Below are positions 57,328-61,418 of a stretch of DNA of 64,000 nucleotides, in pieces. The DNA comes from Geodermatophilus sp. DSM 45219. GTDB lineage: Bacteria > Actinomycetota > Actinomycetes > Mycobacteriales > Geodermatophilaceae. The translations under genes were made by a program, and so were the position numbers. The number at the start of each line of letters is the position of its first letter. Position 1 is the first letter of the stretch. The notes under the pieces are model-generated. The model saw only the letters and a list, made by a program, of their open reading frames with translations. It made no database searches and was not told where the DNA came from. The stretch spans positions 310,001 to 374,000 of the forward strand of contig NZ_FNIQ01000005.1 of the NCBI RefSeq assembly GCF_900104025.1. Reading direction: 5' to 3'.

Positions 57328-59625
57328 CTACAGCTTGACGAGCGGGGCGTAGCGCAGGACGAGGCGCTTGGTGCCGCCGGACCCGAAGTCGACGGTCGCC
57401 TGGGCCTTGTCGCCGATCCCGGTGACCTCGACGACGGTGCCCAGTCCGAACGCGTCGTGGCTGACCCGGTCGCCGACGTCCACCGAGATGACCGGCCGGT
57501 TGCCCGCGCCGCCGCGCAGCCCGCCGGTGGACAGCCCGGTGGCCGCCACCCGCTGCTGCGCCGAGCGGTACCCGGTGCTCGGCGCGGGCACCGGCTCCTT
57601 GCCGGCCCACTGCACGGTGTCACCCGGCAGCTCGTCGAGGAAACGGGACGGCGGGTTGTAGGCCGGCTGCCCCCAGCTGGTGCGCACCGTGGCCCGGGAG
57701 ATGAACAGCCGCTGCTGGGCCCGGGTGATGCCGACGTAGGCCAGCCGGCGCTCCTCCTCCAGCTCGCGCGGGTCGCCGAGCGCGCGCAGGTGCGGGAAGA
57801 CGCCGTCCTCCATGCCGGTGAGGAAGACGACGGGGAACTCCAGGCCCTTGGCGGTGTGCAGGGTCATCAGCGTGACCACGCCGGCATCGTCCCCGGCGAC
57901 GGGGATCTGGTCGGCGTCGGCGACCAGCGACACCTGCTCGAGGAAGTCGGTGACCGAGCCGCCGGGGTTGGCCGCCTCGAACTCCGCGGCCACCGAGACG
58001 AGCTCGTTGAGGTTGTCGACGCGGCCCTCGTCCTGCGGGTCGGTGCTGGCCTGCAGCTCGGCGAGGTAGCCGGTGCGGTCGAGGATGCTCTCCAGCAGCG
58101 CGGCCGGGCCCGAGCCGGTCTCCACCAGCTGCTCGAACTCCTCGAGCAGCGCGACGAACTCCTGGATCGCCTTGAGCGACCGCGGGGCGAGGGTGGTGAC
58201 CTCCGAGCAGCGGCGCAGGGCGCTGCCGAAGGCGATCCGCTCCCGGTCGGCGAAGGACTCGATGCAGGACTCGGCCTTCTCGCCGATCCCCCGCTTGGGC
58301 ACGTTGATCACCCGGCGCAGGCTGACGACGTCGGCCGGGTTGGCGACCAGCTTGAGGTAGGCCAGCGCGTCGCGGACCTCCTTGCGCTCGTAGAAGCGCA
58401 CGCCGCCGACGACCTTGTAGGGCATGCCGACGCGGATGAACACCTCCTCGAACACCCGGGAGGCGTTGTTGGTCCGGTAGAAGACGGCGATGTCCCTGGG
58501 CTTGGCCTCGCCCTCGTCGACCAGCGCGTCGATCTGCTCGGCGACCCAGGCGGCCTCGTCGTGCTCGTTCTCCGCGACGTAGCCCTCGATCAGCGCGCCG
58601 TCGCCCGCGTCGGTCCACAGGTTCTTGGGACGGCGGCCGGTGTTCCTGGAGATGACCTGGTTCGCGGCCTTGAGGATCCGCTGGGTGGAGCGGTAGTTCT
58701 GCTCCAGCAGGATCGTGGTGGCCTGCGGGTAGTCGCGCTCGAACTCGTCGATGTTGCGGATCGTGGCGCCGCGGAAGGCGTAGATCGACTGGTCGGCGTC
58801 GCCGACCACGCACAGCTCGGCCGGTGGCACCGGCCCCTCCCCCGTGCCGACCAGCTCGCGGACCAGCACGTACTGGGCGTGGTTGGTGTCCTGGTACTCG
58901 TCGACCAGCACGTGCCGGAAGCGGCGGCGGTAGTGCTCGGCGACGTCGGGGAACGCCTGCAGCAGGTGCACGGTCGTCATGATCAGGTCGTCGAAGTCCA
59001 TGGCGTGCGCCTCGCGCAGCCGCCGCTGGTAGAGCGTGTAGGCCTCCTTGAGCACCTTCTCCGGCGCCGTCTGGGGGCTGAAGGACTCCTCGTCGACGAG
59101 CTCGTTCTTCAGGTTGGACACCTGGGCGGCGAGGCTGCGGCCGGGGTAGCGCTTGGCGTCGAGGTCCAGGTCGCGGGCCACCATGGTCATGAGCCGGACG
59201 GAGTCGCCCTGGTCGTAGATCGTGAACGACGACTTCATCCCGAGCTTGCCGGCCTCGGCCCGCAGGATGCGCACGCACATCGAGTGGAACGTCGACACCC
59301 ACATCGCGCGGGCGCGCGGGCCGACGAGCGCGGCGACCCGCTCCTTCATCTCCCCGGCGGCCTTGTTGGTGAAGGTGATCGCGAGGATCTCACCGGGCTG
59401 CACGCCGCGGGCGCCGAGCAGGTACGCGATGCGGTGCGCCAGCACCCGGGTCTTGCCCGAGCCGGCGCCCGCGACGATGAGCAGCGGGCTGCCCTCGTGG
59501 ACGACGGCCTGCCGTTGCGGCCCGTTGAGGCCGGCGAGCATGCGGTCCAGCTCCCGCCCCACCTGGCCGGAGGCGGAACGCTGGAGGGACGCGGTGCCCG
59601 GGAGGGCCTGCTGCACGCTGCTCAT
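57328..59625 (-). CDS. pcrA: ATP-dependent DNA helicase PcrA/UvrD
   Basis: 765-aa superfamily 1 3'-5' helicase for excision repair and replication. Q-motif LNGPQRQAVVH near residue 33, Walker A AGAGSGKTRVLAHRI near 53, ITFTNKAAGEMKER near 84, STFHSMCVRILR near 110, VDEYQDTNHAQY (motif II) near 226, GDADQSIYAFRGA near 257, LEQNYRST near 288, TLHTAKGLEF near 560, VGITRAQ near 605. The C-terminus has the Tudor-like SVDVGDRVSHDAFGLGTVVEV domain that contacts RNA polymerase in PcrA. ATG 59625. All motifs intact. Confidence 0.96.
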   Translation of the reverse strand: MSSVQQALPGTASLQRSASGQVGRELDRMLAGLNGPQRQAVVHEGSPLLIVAGAGSGKTRVLAHRIAYLLGARGVQPGEILAITFTNKAAGEMKERVAALVGPRARAMWVSTFHSMCVRILRAEAGKLGMKSSFTIYDQGDSVRLMTMVARDLDLDAKRYPGRSLAAQVSNLKNELVDEESFSPQTAPEKVLKEAYTLYQRRLREAHAMDFDDLIMTTVHLLQAFPDVAEHYRRRFRHVLVDEYQDTNHAQYVLVRELVGTGEGPVPPAELCVVGDADQSIYAFRGATIRNIDEFERDYPQATTILLEQNYRSTQRILKAANQVISRNTGRRPKNLWTDAGDGALIEGYVAENEHDEAAWVAEQIDALVDEGEAKPRDIAVFYRTNNASRVFEEVFIRVGMPYKVVGGVRFYERKEVRDALAYLKLVANPADVVSLRRVINVPKRGIGEKAESCIESFADRERIAFGSALRRCSEVTTLAPRSLKAIQEFVALLEEFEQLVETGSGPAALLESILDRTGYLAELQASTDPQDEGRVDNLNELVSVAAEFEAANPGGSVTDFLEQVSLVADADQIPVAGDDAGVVTLMTLHTAKGLEFPVVFLTGMEDGVFPHLRALGDPRELEEERRLAYVGITRAQQRLFISRATVRTSWGQPAYNPPSRFLDELPGDTVQWAGKEPVPAPSTGYRSAQQRVAATGLSTGGLRGGAGNRPVISVDVGDRVSHDAFGLGTVVEVTGIGDKAQATVDFGSGGTKRLVLRYAPLVKL

Positions 59626-59732
59626 GACGACACCACTGTAGTTCGGTCGGGTGACGCGGCCCGCCGCCGCGCGCCGTCGTCCACAGGGGGTCCGGTGGCC
59701 AGGATCGCCGTCCCCGTGGCAGACTCCCCGAC

Positions 59733-59795
59733 GTGCTCGCCGCCCTCAGCTTTTACTACGGCCACCGGGATCCGGTGTCCGTCACCGCTGGCTGA
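59733..59795 (+). CDS. Leader peptide with Phe-Tyr-Tyr ahead of chorismate mutase
   Basis: GTG 59733 opens 20 codons ending at TGA 59793-59795: MLAALSFYYGHRDPVSVTAG. TTT TAC TAC at 59751-59759 are control-codon candidates for phenylalanine and tyrosine, the end products of the chorismate mutase branch. CAGACT (59720-59725) lies 7 nt before the GTG, so the leader would be transcribed and translated leaderless. CACCGG/CCGGTG at 59763-59777 can form a pause hairpin directly after the control codons. A terminator follows 17 nt after the stop. Not known to me from any described system; codon content and layout are the evidence. Confidence 0.65.
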   Translation: MLAALSFYYGHRDPVSVTAG

Positions 59796-59811
59796 GCACA
59801 CGCCGCAACAG

Positions 59812-59848
59812 ACGCCCCGGGCCCGAGGAGCCCGGGGCGTTTCTCGTT
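59812..59848 (+). terminator. Attenuator terminator upstream of chorismate mutase
   Basis: Stem ACGCCCCGGGC (59812-59822) with 59830-59840, 11 perfect base pairs, 7-nt loop, followed by TTTCTCGTT. It lies between the leader peptide and the GTG at 59892, where a terminator would block the gene unless controlled. A classical Rho-independent form, rare in such GC-rich DNA. Confidence 0.8.
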
Positions 59849-59891
59849 CCAGGGGGTCCTCCGGCCCAGAGCCCGCCCCAGGAGGACCGCC

Positions 59892-60158
59892 GTGACCGCG
59901 ACCATCGACACCCCCGCCGACGAGCGCATCGCCGAGCTGCGCGGGCAGATCGACGCCTGCGACGCCGAGATCATCGAGCTGGTGCAGCGCCGGCTCGCCG
60001 TGTCCCGGGAGATCGGCGAGCTGCGCCGCGCCTCCGGCGGCACCCGGCTGTCGCTGTCCCGCGAGCAGCAGGTGCTCGCCCGCTTCCAGGCCGCGCTCGG
60101 CCGGGACGGCGCCGCGCTCGGCATGATGCTGCTGCGCCAGGGCCGCGGCCGCCTCTGA
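59892..60158 (+). CDS. Chorismate mutase (AroQ class)
   Basis: 88-aa all-helical monofunctional enzyme converting chorismate to prephenate, first step to Phe and Tyr. RIAELRGQIDACDAEIIELVQRRLAVSREIGELRRASG matches the AroQ core with the Arg and Lys/Arg active-site pattern; the C-terminal helix (LGMMLLRQGRG) is somewhat shorter than in E. coli. GTG 59892 with AGGAGGACCGCC upstream. Expressed from an attenuated leader, see 59733 and 59812. Its stop TGA (60156-60158) is the start of a hairpin element. Confidence 0.9.
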   Translation: MTATIDTPADERIAELRGQIDACDAEIIELVQRRLAVSREIGELRRASGGTRLSLSREQQVLARFQAALGRDGAALGMMLLRQGRGRL

Positions 60159-60279
60159 CGAAGGACCCTCCCGCCTCCCACGGCTCACGAGCTCGCCGCG
60201 GGGCCCTGCACGGGAGCCGTTCCAGTCCGTCACCGGGCTCGCCGCGGGCCCCGCAGGAGGGCCGTTCCAGCACGTCACC
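60156..60279. repeat. Hairpin element and half-copy between convergent genes
   Basis: TGACGAAGGACCCTCCCGCC starts on the chorismate mutase stop and ends with CGGGAGCCGTTCCAGTCCGT-CACC at 60235. A right half of a second element follows (60236-60279), ending GGCCGTTCCAGCACGTCACC, whose TCA (60275-60277) is the stop of the facing SnoaL-like gene. So both converging genes take their stops from element ends. Confidence 0.75.
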
Positions 60280-60682
60280 CGCCGCGCGGGTCGGCCGGCG
60301 GGAAGTCCGCGTGGCGGTGCACCAGCCACCAGTCGTCCTCGACGCGCTTGTAGACGTGCGTGACCCGGATCGTCATGGGCCGGGCCTCGCCGCCGTCCAC
60401 GCGCACCGTGCCGTGCTCGAAGCCGACCGTGTAGGCGAGGGCGCCACTGACCTCGACCACCTCGTACCGCGGCACGAGCTGACCGTCGCTGAACCGGCTG
60501 CCCACCCACTCGAAGGTCCGGGCGACGGCGTGGTGCCCCTTCTCGATCGGACCCCAGGCGCCGAACAACGTCACGTCGGCGGAGTCGGCCCAGCAGGCGG
60601 CGTACGGGCCGGGGTTCCCGGCTCCCATCGCCGCCAATCCGTCGGCGACACGCTCCAGAGCCCGGGACAGCGCAGCGTCCAT
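60275..60682 (-). CDS. SnoaL-like / NTF2-fold protein
   Basis: 135-aa cone-shaped fold domain: GLAAMGAGNPGPYAACWADSADVTLFGAWGP at the front, EVSGALAYTVGFEHGTVRVDGGEARPMTIRVTHVYKRVEDDWWLVHRHAD at the back, the pattern of ketosteroid-isomerase/SnoaL relatives with a steric-stress or small-molecule role. ATG 60682 with GGAGAGGGG upstream. Divergent from the ECF41 operon, so it may be controlled with it. Function not predictable. Confidence 0.8.
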   Translation of the reverse strand: MDAALSRALERVADGLAAMGAGNPGPYAACWADSADVTLFGAWGPIEKGHHAVARTFEWVGSRFSDGQLVPRYEVVEVSGALAYTVGFEHGTVRVDGGEARPMTIRVTHVYKRVEDDWWLVHRHADFPPADPRGG

Positions 60683-60801
60683 GCCCCTCTCCCTCCCCTC
60701 GGACGTGCCGCCGACGGGTCCACCGCGCGGCACCGAGCGGGGCCAGCATGCGACCCGCGGGCCCGGCCGCGGAAGGTGCCACGGACCCGCCCTGGTCGGC
60801 A

Positions 60802-60828
60802 CGTCACACCGGGGCGCGCCGTCCCGTC
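60802..60828 (+). promoter_or_regulatory. ECF41-type promoter
   Basis: CGTCACA (60802-60808), 16-nt spacer, CGTC (60825-60828). The ECF41 signature known to me is TGTCACA-N16-CGTC; this differs only at the first base. It lies 30 bp upstream of the carboxymuconolactone-decarboxylase-like gene that precedes the ECF41 sigma gene, implying autoregulation. Confidence 0.7.
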
Positions 60829-60857
60829 TCCATGTGCAGCACCCCACGGAGAGGACG

Positions 60858-61418
60858 ATGACCATGGCCCGCATCCCGCTCGACCCGCCCCGCACCCGCC
60901 TGTACCGCCTCGCCGAGTGGTACGCACGCCGGACCTACGGCGTCGTGCCCGACCCGCTCGCCGCCATGGCGCACCACCCGCGGGTCCTGCTCACCGACGT
61001 CCGCTTCGAGGCCTCGCTCGCCCGGTGGGACCGGCTGGACGGGACGCTGAAGTCGCTCGCCGTCATGGCCTCCGCCGTCTCGATCGGCTGCTCCTGGTGC
61101 GTCGACTTCGGGTACTGGATCAGCAACCAGGAGGGCGTGGACCCCGAGAAGCTGCGCGCCGTGCCGCGCTGGCGGGACAGCGACGTCTTCACCGACCTCG
61201 AGCGACGGGTGATGGCCTACGCCGAGGCGGTGACGACGACGCCGGTCACCGTGACCGACGAGATGGTGGCCGGCCTGCGGCGCGAGCTGGACGACGCGCA
61301 ACTGGTCGAGCTCACCATGATGGTGGCCGTGGAGAACGTGCGGTCGCGGTTCAACGGCGCGCTCGGGCTGACCAGCCAGGGCTTCCGGGACCGCTGCGAG
61401 CTCCCGGCCGGGGCATGA
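60858..61418 (+). CDS. Carboxymuconolactone decarboxylase / AhpD-like protein
   Basis: 186 aa, all-helical. The CxxC motif lies in GCSWCVDFGYW near residue 76, with the helix AVMASAVSIG before it and VMAYAEAVTTTPVTVTDEMV after it, as in the CMD/AhpD family, which detoxifies peroxides or carries out decarboxylation. ATG 60858 with GGAGAGGA 4-5 nt upstream. The stop overlaps the start of the sigma gene (ATGA). A CMD gene next to an ECF41 sigma factor is the known genomic signature of that group, so it is the likely main target of the sigma factor. Confidence 0.88.
   Translation: MTMARIPLDPPRTRLYRLAEWYARRTYGVVPDPLAAMAHHPRVLLTDVRFEASLARWDRLDGTLKSLAVMASAVSIGCSWCVDFGYWISNQEGVDPEKLRAVPRWRDSDVFTDLERRVMAYAEAVTTTPVTVTDEMVAGLRRELDDAQLVELTMMVAVENVRSRFNGALGLTSQGFRDRCELPAGA

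Follow-up and report, generated by a model that had tools for sequence, protein, structure and literature searches.

A conserved phenylalanine/tyrosine leader peptide and a probable transcription attenuator upstream of the monofunctional chorismate mutase gene of Geodermatophilus and other actinomycetes

Introduction

The locus of the chorismate mutase (CM) gene in Geodermatophilus sp. DSM 45219 raises the question whether a very short open reading frame (ORF) with adjacent Phe and Tyr codons, situated directly upstream of the gene and followed by a GC-rich hairpin, serves to adjust its expression to the supply of these amino acids. CM leads to Phe and Tyr, not to Trp. An initial annotation of the stretch of DNA analysed here (64,000 nt of a genome of 4.97 Mb, in the following termed the window) had suggested attenuation of the CM gene by this leader, and had added that no such case was known for a monofunctional CM. 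No described attenuator at a monofunctional CM was found by us among the open-licence papers listed either, though a description may exist in subscription journals; the open-licence literature yielded no description of the leader peptide motifs and none of the transcription start or leaderless state of Rv0948c. As far as the accessible text goes, the survey of Seliverstov et al. of 2005 reported no conserved RNA regulation upstream of the phenylalanine and tyrosine operons of Actinobacteria (PMC1262725).

The leader, its possible RNA structures and its distribution were analysed in the window, in further Geodermatophilaceae and in other actinomycetes.

Materials and Methods

A search with the CM protein yielded at least 36 loci, from which L032 (almost no upstream DNA) as well as L035 and L036 (not actinobacterial) were dropped; the 33 loci kept and the window form the Geodermatophilaceae set of 34 sequences. 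Further CM genes were located with the protein family NF005894, which in 298 genomes of the order gave a match in 288 (276 over the cut-off) and in 148 genomes of the class in 55 (38 over the cut-off). The search was repeated in 38 of the 298 genomes for coordinates. Upstream DNA was read for 126 of the listed matches, chosen by score or genus spread and not by leader, and after removal of L072, L078 and L157, where contig ends shift the position, 123 loci remained. A leader was accepted if Phe or Tyr occurred at most two residues before [YF]G.[RGP], with an in-frame start codon and 7 to 24 residues from the Tyr to the stop.

Synonymous shuffling of leader codons used the codon usage of the pcrA and CM genes of the window. 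Antiterminator pairing was calculated for 115 unique loci with a terminator; the nascent RNA was folded between segment 2 and the loop of the terminator, on the assumption of a ribosome stalled at the last Tyr codon. The distribution of the module was followed with the stringent DNA pattern TWYTAYGGNNNCCGGNNNCCGGNNNCCGT, which covers some of the families only.

Results

Organization of the chorismate mutase locus

The following features were recognized in the window:

59720–59725, plus strand: -10-like element CAGACT, 7 nt 5' of the leader GTG, kept in relatives
59733–59795, plus strand: leader ORF of 20 codons, MLAALSFYYGHRDPVSVTAG, with GTG start and TGA stop, probably leaderless (ORF translation, conservation)
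59751–59759, plus strand: control codons TTT TAC TAC (Phe-Tyr-Tyr), from the sequence
59758–59782, plus strand: 1:2 pause hairpin, 4 bp, a C.U mismatch and 6 bp, loop GAU (fold, cross-family pairing)
59772–59820, plus strand: predicted 2:3 antiterminator, CCGGTGTC (59772–59779) with GACGCC (59811–59816) and GG (59819–59820)
59811–59822/59830–59841, plus strand: putative 3:4 intrinsic terminator, GC-rich stem of 12 bp (fold, conservation)
59880–59885, plus strand: Shine-Dalgarno sequence AGGAGG of the CM gene, read from the sequence
59892–60158, plus strand: CM gene, monofunctional AroQ-type, 88 aa (profile matches), the proposed regulated gene
60275–60895, strand opposite to CM: gene after CM

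Along the plus strand the -10-like box, the leader ORF, the hairpin, the terminator stem with a short T tail, AGGAGG and CM thus succeed one another. The CM gene matches NF005894 with 98.0 bits (cut-off 73) as well as TIGR01808 and PF01817 above their cut-offs, and the nearest named matches of its protein, among those listed, belong to Geodermatophilus (up to 88% identity), Blastococcus, Modestobacter and Klenkia. Since pcrA (57328–59625) is divergent from CM and the 3' neighbour lies on the opposite strand, CM appears to be a single-gene unit.

Leader ORF, putative promoter and control codons

The 20-codon ORF with TTT TAC TAC is exactly as initially annotated and extends from the GTG at 59733 to the TGA ending at 59795. 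Its suggested leaderless start is supported at the level of sequence by the CAGACT element, which is conserved in relatives: a -10-like box directly 5' of the leader is visible in 34/34 Geodermatophilaceae, in most of them in the form TGTGGCA[GC]ACT. A simple consensus scan detected no sigma-70 promoter at the window leader. Outside the family, a hexamer.A...T was found 5–9 nt 5' of the ATG or GTG in 96 of 104 leaders (95 at 6 or 7 nt), compared with 294/2080 when the same choice was made on shuffled upstream DNA, and this spacing of 6–7 nt between box and start is what a leaderless transcript would need.

Each of the 34 Geodermatophilaceae sequences for which upstream DNA was available has a GTG leader ORF at the same place, and each of these leaders has Phe at position -2 and the last Tyr; between them stands Tyr in 21 leaders, Ser in 6, Phe in 5, Ala in 1 and Pro in 1. 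Absence of Phe and Tyr codons from orthologous leaders had been named beforehand as the observation that would speak against attenuation, and such an absence was not encountered in these 34; the hairpins and terminators upstream of the orthologs were kept as well. In 138 leaders taken together the last control residue is Tyr 135 times and Phe three times, with Phe at position -2 in 126 leaders. The five-residue control stretches that end with the last Tyr contain in sum 234 Phe, 185 Tyr and 2 Trp of 690. The finding rule itself requires an aromatic residue near the last Tyr, and the Phe and Tyr excess is partly due to this rule, by which 104 of the 138 leaders were found; Trp is not excluded by the rule elsewhere, and its near-absence does not stem from it. 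The proposal that the control residues are the products of the CM branch was borne out in this respect, and as Phe and Tyr, but not Trp, arise from this branch, the make-up of the control codons fits the enzyme.

The Phe control codon of the window (59751–59753) is TTT, despite the GC-rich genome. Within the control stretches of the 138 leaders TTT accounts for 154 and TTC for 80 of the 234 Phe codons; pcrA of the window has TTT 0 and TTC 26 times.

Distribution of the leader among actinomycetes

Upstream of CM in 104 of the 123 further actinomycete loci a leader was found by the rule, which was fixed after inspection of the loci, so that this count is not an independent test; the controls, to which the same rule was applied, gave 0/123 on the reverse strand, 4/2460 in dinucleotide shuffles and 6/498 in other blocks. 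By family, leaders were accepted in 24/24 loci of f15, 10/10 of f33, 9/9 of f4, 9/10 of f2, 8/10 of f32, 7/7 of f16, 4/4 of f13, 21/35 of f8, 4/6 of f10 and 2/4 of f3, plus smaller families, in all of which counts the three dropped loci are still included as misses. Twenty further stretches contained an aromatic leader in 12 cases, one of which (L209) had been fetched because the stringent pattern matched there; none was found in seven, two of these being second CM copies, and L205 was too short. The second CM copies without a recognisable leader, L207 and L208, occur in two genomes of f32.

Fourteen of the 19 loci missed by the rule belong to f8 (13 in genera in which no leader was found, and the decayed L065) and five to others. 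Short aromatic-rich ORFs that the rule did not accept were noted by eye in L081, L083, L094, L097 and L159. In L065, a member of an f8 genus that usually has the leader, the Phe codons are lost and no terminator hairpin is visible by eye, which may possibly reflect a joint loss of Phe codons and terminator.

Different 5' regions were seen by eye in some genera. In g64 (L040, L042, L054, L219), and likewise in g44 (L148, L153, L218) and g62 (L062, L220), a -10-like box lies 7–8 nt before the start of CM itself, which looks as though the attenuator module were missing and CM were leaderless. No Phe/Tyr leader was found within about 80 nt upstream of CM in g27 (L059, L060, L061, L063, L064) and g75 (L055), where instead CGGTAAC[GA]C is followed by GATCC and GTTCTGAC[AG]CGAGGAG just before CM; L055, L059 and L064 gave no Rfam match, and this region is possibly another cis-element.

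The 1:2 stem and the peptide motif

The pause hairpin initially noted at 59763–59777 exists and proved to be the upper part of the longer hairpin 59758–59782, the 5' arm of which starts within the last Tyr codon; the stretch 59757–59783 folds at -15.3 kcal/mol. In the Geodermatophilaceae the DNA from the last Tyr codon onwards reads TAC GG..AC CGG ... CCG GT..CC GT., corresponding to Y-G-x-R ... P-V-x-V, with the two codon blocks complementary to one another. Among 81 unique hairpins from all families the stem has on average 8.77 of 10 pairs, compared with 7.84 (sd 0.13; highest of 200 trials 8.22) if the 3' arms are swapped between families and 6.86 (sd 0.10) after synonymous codon shuffling. 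The outer pairs change jointly (ACGGG/CCCGT, ACGGC/GCCGT, ATGGC/GCCAT), and pairing is retained in f33 and f32 although their 3' arm is read in another frame (TGCH, RSPL). Since the stem is kept by compensatory changes even across a change of frame, RNA pairing best explains the peptide motif, and likeliest, judged from these alignments, the motif would owe its conservation to selection on the RNA stem, with the Phe and Tyr codons at the foot of the stem.

Within the Geodermatophilaceae the stems are nearly invariant. One double change (in one row) supports 1:2, one supports 2:3, and stem 3:4 has two pairs with four cells of supporting change; the observed covariation scores were reached by 17/500, 33/500 and 2/500 shuffles for 1:2, 2:3 and 3:4, respectively. 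Covariation is modest here because the stems hardly vary within the family, and would by itself be a weak argument; it is on the comparison between families that the case depends.

Terminator and predicted antiterminator

The GC-rich terminator with T-rich tail that had been proposed was upheld with regard to its stem, which has 12 pairs including one G.U instead of the 11 assumed, and not with regard to its tail, which is weak (TTTCTCGTT from 59840). The stretch 59810–59845 folds at -27.8 kcal/mol; a simple consensus scan found no terminator at the window leader. A folded hairpin of -12 kcal/mol or lower with a T-rich tail 3' of the leader is present in 118/138 loci if internal loops are allowed (74/138 without mismatches), in contrast to 32/276 shuffles, and in 34/34 Geodermatophilaceae. 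Loci of f32 (2/8) and f10 (1/4) mostly have no T-tailed hairpin. In two loci of f10, L077 and L084, a post-leader hairpin was seen by eye, a TCCTCGACC-type stretch with GGTCGAGGA, which has no T tail and lies near the CM ribosome site; in these two loci control could be translational rather than transcriptional.

An antiterminator was not named initially and is predicted here. The leader stop codon falls between its two arms. In the 115 loci folded, the mean number of expected pairs between segment 2 and the terminator's 5' arm, including a few preceding bases, is 8.80. Shuffling of segment 2 lowers it to 6.25 (110/115 loci above their own control) and its exchange for that of another family to 6.88 (98/115 above); the two f32 loci do not surpass this second control. 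For the window, the register GGUGUC:GACGCC has -15.4 kcal/mol, while the unconstrained nascent fold has -18.0 in a different register, in which segments 2 and 3 are tied up as well. Single relatives show matching changes: in L029 GGCGTC replaces GGTGTC, by which a U.G pair becomes C-G, and in the Klenkia locus L006 (seven of the 34 sequences were folded) the 5' arm of the terminator and segment 2 are both altered and pair with each other.

Specificity for chorismate mutase

The pattern TWYTAYGGNNNCCGGNNNCCGGNNNCCGT occurs in 77 of the 298 genomes with one match each, and its reversed form gave one match in all. CM lies downstream of 76 of the 77 matches, and the contig of the remaining one ends 135 nt later. 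Considered separately, 46 of 47 matches without a fetched locus have a CM match 80–199 nt downstream on the same strand, the 47th being followed by a CM-like frame (fetched, by eye), and a CM frame follows in 29 of the 30 fetched loci with a pattern match, window included. A relaxed pattern had one exact match in the window's own genome, which is the window site, and four matches with three mismatches, one of which is the window site on the other strand.

In the same genome no convincing Phe/Tyr leader was found within 600 nt upstream of the family match for the PF01474-type DAHP synthase, where the best short ORFs have two aromatic residues in four, and no candidate leader ORF within 600 nt upstream of prephenate dehydratase and prephenate dehydrogenase.

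Comparison with known RNA and peptide families

Rfam 15, including T-box and riboswitch families, gave no match at gathering thresholds in the whole window. Among 15 related loci, examined up to E = 1, only two sub-threshold sRNA matches appeared and were rejected: F6 at L122:448–484 (26.8 bits, cut-off 46, E = 0.53), which covers the terminator hairpin on the opposite (minus) strand and probably reflects a chance likeness to a strong hairpin, and M23 in L150 (E = 0.28), far downstream. Eight leader peptides had no match in the leader-peptide families of NCBIfam 20 up to E = 10, with queries so short as to be hard for HMMs.

Discussion

The elements by which an attenuator is recognized were found together at this locus, i.e., codons for the end products in an upstream ORF, a 1:2 hairpin, a predicted 2:3 antiterminator and a 3:4 terminator before the gene, and Phe/Tyr leaders, hairpins and terminators are conserved in relatives, which supports the reading of the initial annotation. 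We therefore consider it highly probable, on the strength of the sequence comparisons, that the leader is a classical ribosome-mediated transcription attenuator sensing charged tRNA-Phe and tRNA-Tyr, and CM would very probably be switched on only when Phe or Tyr run short.

From the sequence, its conservation, the complementarity of the segments and the specificity for CM we infer start site, stalling, termination and regulatory response in vivo as follows. RNA polymerase would start at or near 59733, and a 70S ribosome would start directly on the 5' GTG. With Phe and Tyr plentiful, the ribosome would reach the stop codon at 59793–59795 and cover the middle of the leader; because of this, as proposed, the antiterminator could not form, and the terminator at 59811–59841 would end transcription before CM. 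With Phe-tRNA or Tyr-tRNA in short supply, the ribosome would stall on TTT TAC TAC and block the 5' arm of 1:2, whereupon segment 2 (59772–59779) would become available for pairing with the terminator's 5' arm, and transcription would proceed into CM.

Three other explanations were weighed. The leader and its hairpins might act by translational attenuation and control access to the Shine-Dalgarno sequence of CM instead of termination. In its favour, sequestor hairpins for the Shine-Dalgarno sequence appear in a figure legend of the actinobacterial survey of 2005 (PMC1262725), PMC13236596 cites cysteine genes under translation attenuation, and the scarcity of T-tailed hairpins in f10 and f32 would agree with it. 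However, the Shine-Dalgarno sequence of the window (59880) lies about 38 nt past the terminator stem, and hairpins with a T tail predominate in the leaders as a whole and are without exception in the Geodermatophilaceae, so that we regard translational control as improbable for the module in general. Switching could also be due to Rho-dependent or mixed termination, with the hairpin only protecting the RNA end; the weak T tail and the failure of the consensus scan to detect the hairpin would fit. We hold this to be very unlikely, given that the leader is followed by a conserved hairpin of terminator type, with whose 5' arm the antiterminator is predicted to pair.

Equally little credence is given to a conserved small protein with a function of its own, to which the hairpin would be incidental, even though many families share YG[HY]R..PV.V at the protein level. 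The N-terminal halves of the leaders vary freely, the C-terminal half shifts its frame between families (PVSV, PAPV, TGCH, RSPL) while the RNA pairing is kept, and synonymous shuffling lowers the pairing of the stem. Ribosome-mediated transcription attenuation thus remains the preferred reading.

The mechanism as such is known; new are its target, a monofunctional CM, Phe/Tyr control outside Corynebacterium aroF, and its breadth. The nearest known case is aroR, an F-Y-F leader before aroF (DAHP synthase) in Corynebacterium glutamicum (Neshat et al., 2014, as presented in PMC11802643 and PMC4046766). It is likewise an actinobacterial Phe/Tyr leader before a gene of aromatic amino acid synthesis and is reported there to respond to Phe limitation, but the target in the window is CM and not DAHP synthase, the comparison here being with the published description of aroR. 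Escherichia coli pheL-pheA, too, has a leader peptide before a protein with CM activity, a Phe leader described as responding to charged Phe-tRNA (PMC11802643); in contrast to the monofunctional CM of the window, pheA encodes the bifunctional CM-prephenate dehydratase of a proteobacterium, and the window leader differs further in its control codons for both Phe and Tyr and its probably leaderless start. The latter resembles the eight leaders presented for Streptomyces lividans TK24, among them leuL, trpL, ilvL, alaL, metL and thrL, which are actinobacterial and mostly leaderless, although none is described in the available portion of that article as Phe/Tyr-dependent or as preceding CM (PMC8079986). 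The ilvB1 attenuator of Mycobacterium tuberculosis, as described in PMC13236596, shares control codons in an upstream ORF and competing antiterminator and terminator, but senses branched-chain amino acids and belongs to another gene.

With regard to evolution, we lean towards an ancient attenuator that would predate the split of several actinomycete orders and be the standard control of monofunctional CM, in which the RNA stem was preserved while the reading frame drifted, and from which single genera lost the module and kept the promoter. A Phe/Tyr attenuator in many families of the class fills a gap left by the survey of 2005, as far as its accessible text extends (PMC1262725). It also proposes a function for a small ORF present in many genomes, and provides a clear instance in which a conserved peptide motif is best accounted for by the need of two codon blocks to pair as RNA.

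If the attenuator operates as proposed, the Phe/Tyr branch would have its transcriptional set-point in the abundance of CM, and for CMs that work in a complex with DAHP synthase this would bear on the entry into the pathway, too. The CM of M. tuberculosis is described as poorly active alone and in need of a complex with DAHP synthase (PMC7762937, PMC4281200). Should the enzymes considered here behave by analogy, control of the amount of CM could set the flux through the branch, which, if true, would bear on the making of aromatic compounds in actinobacteria.
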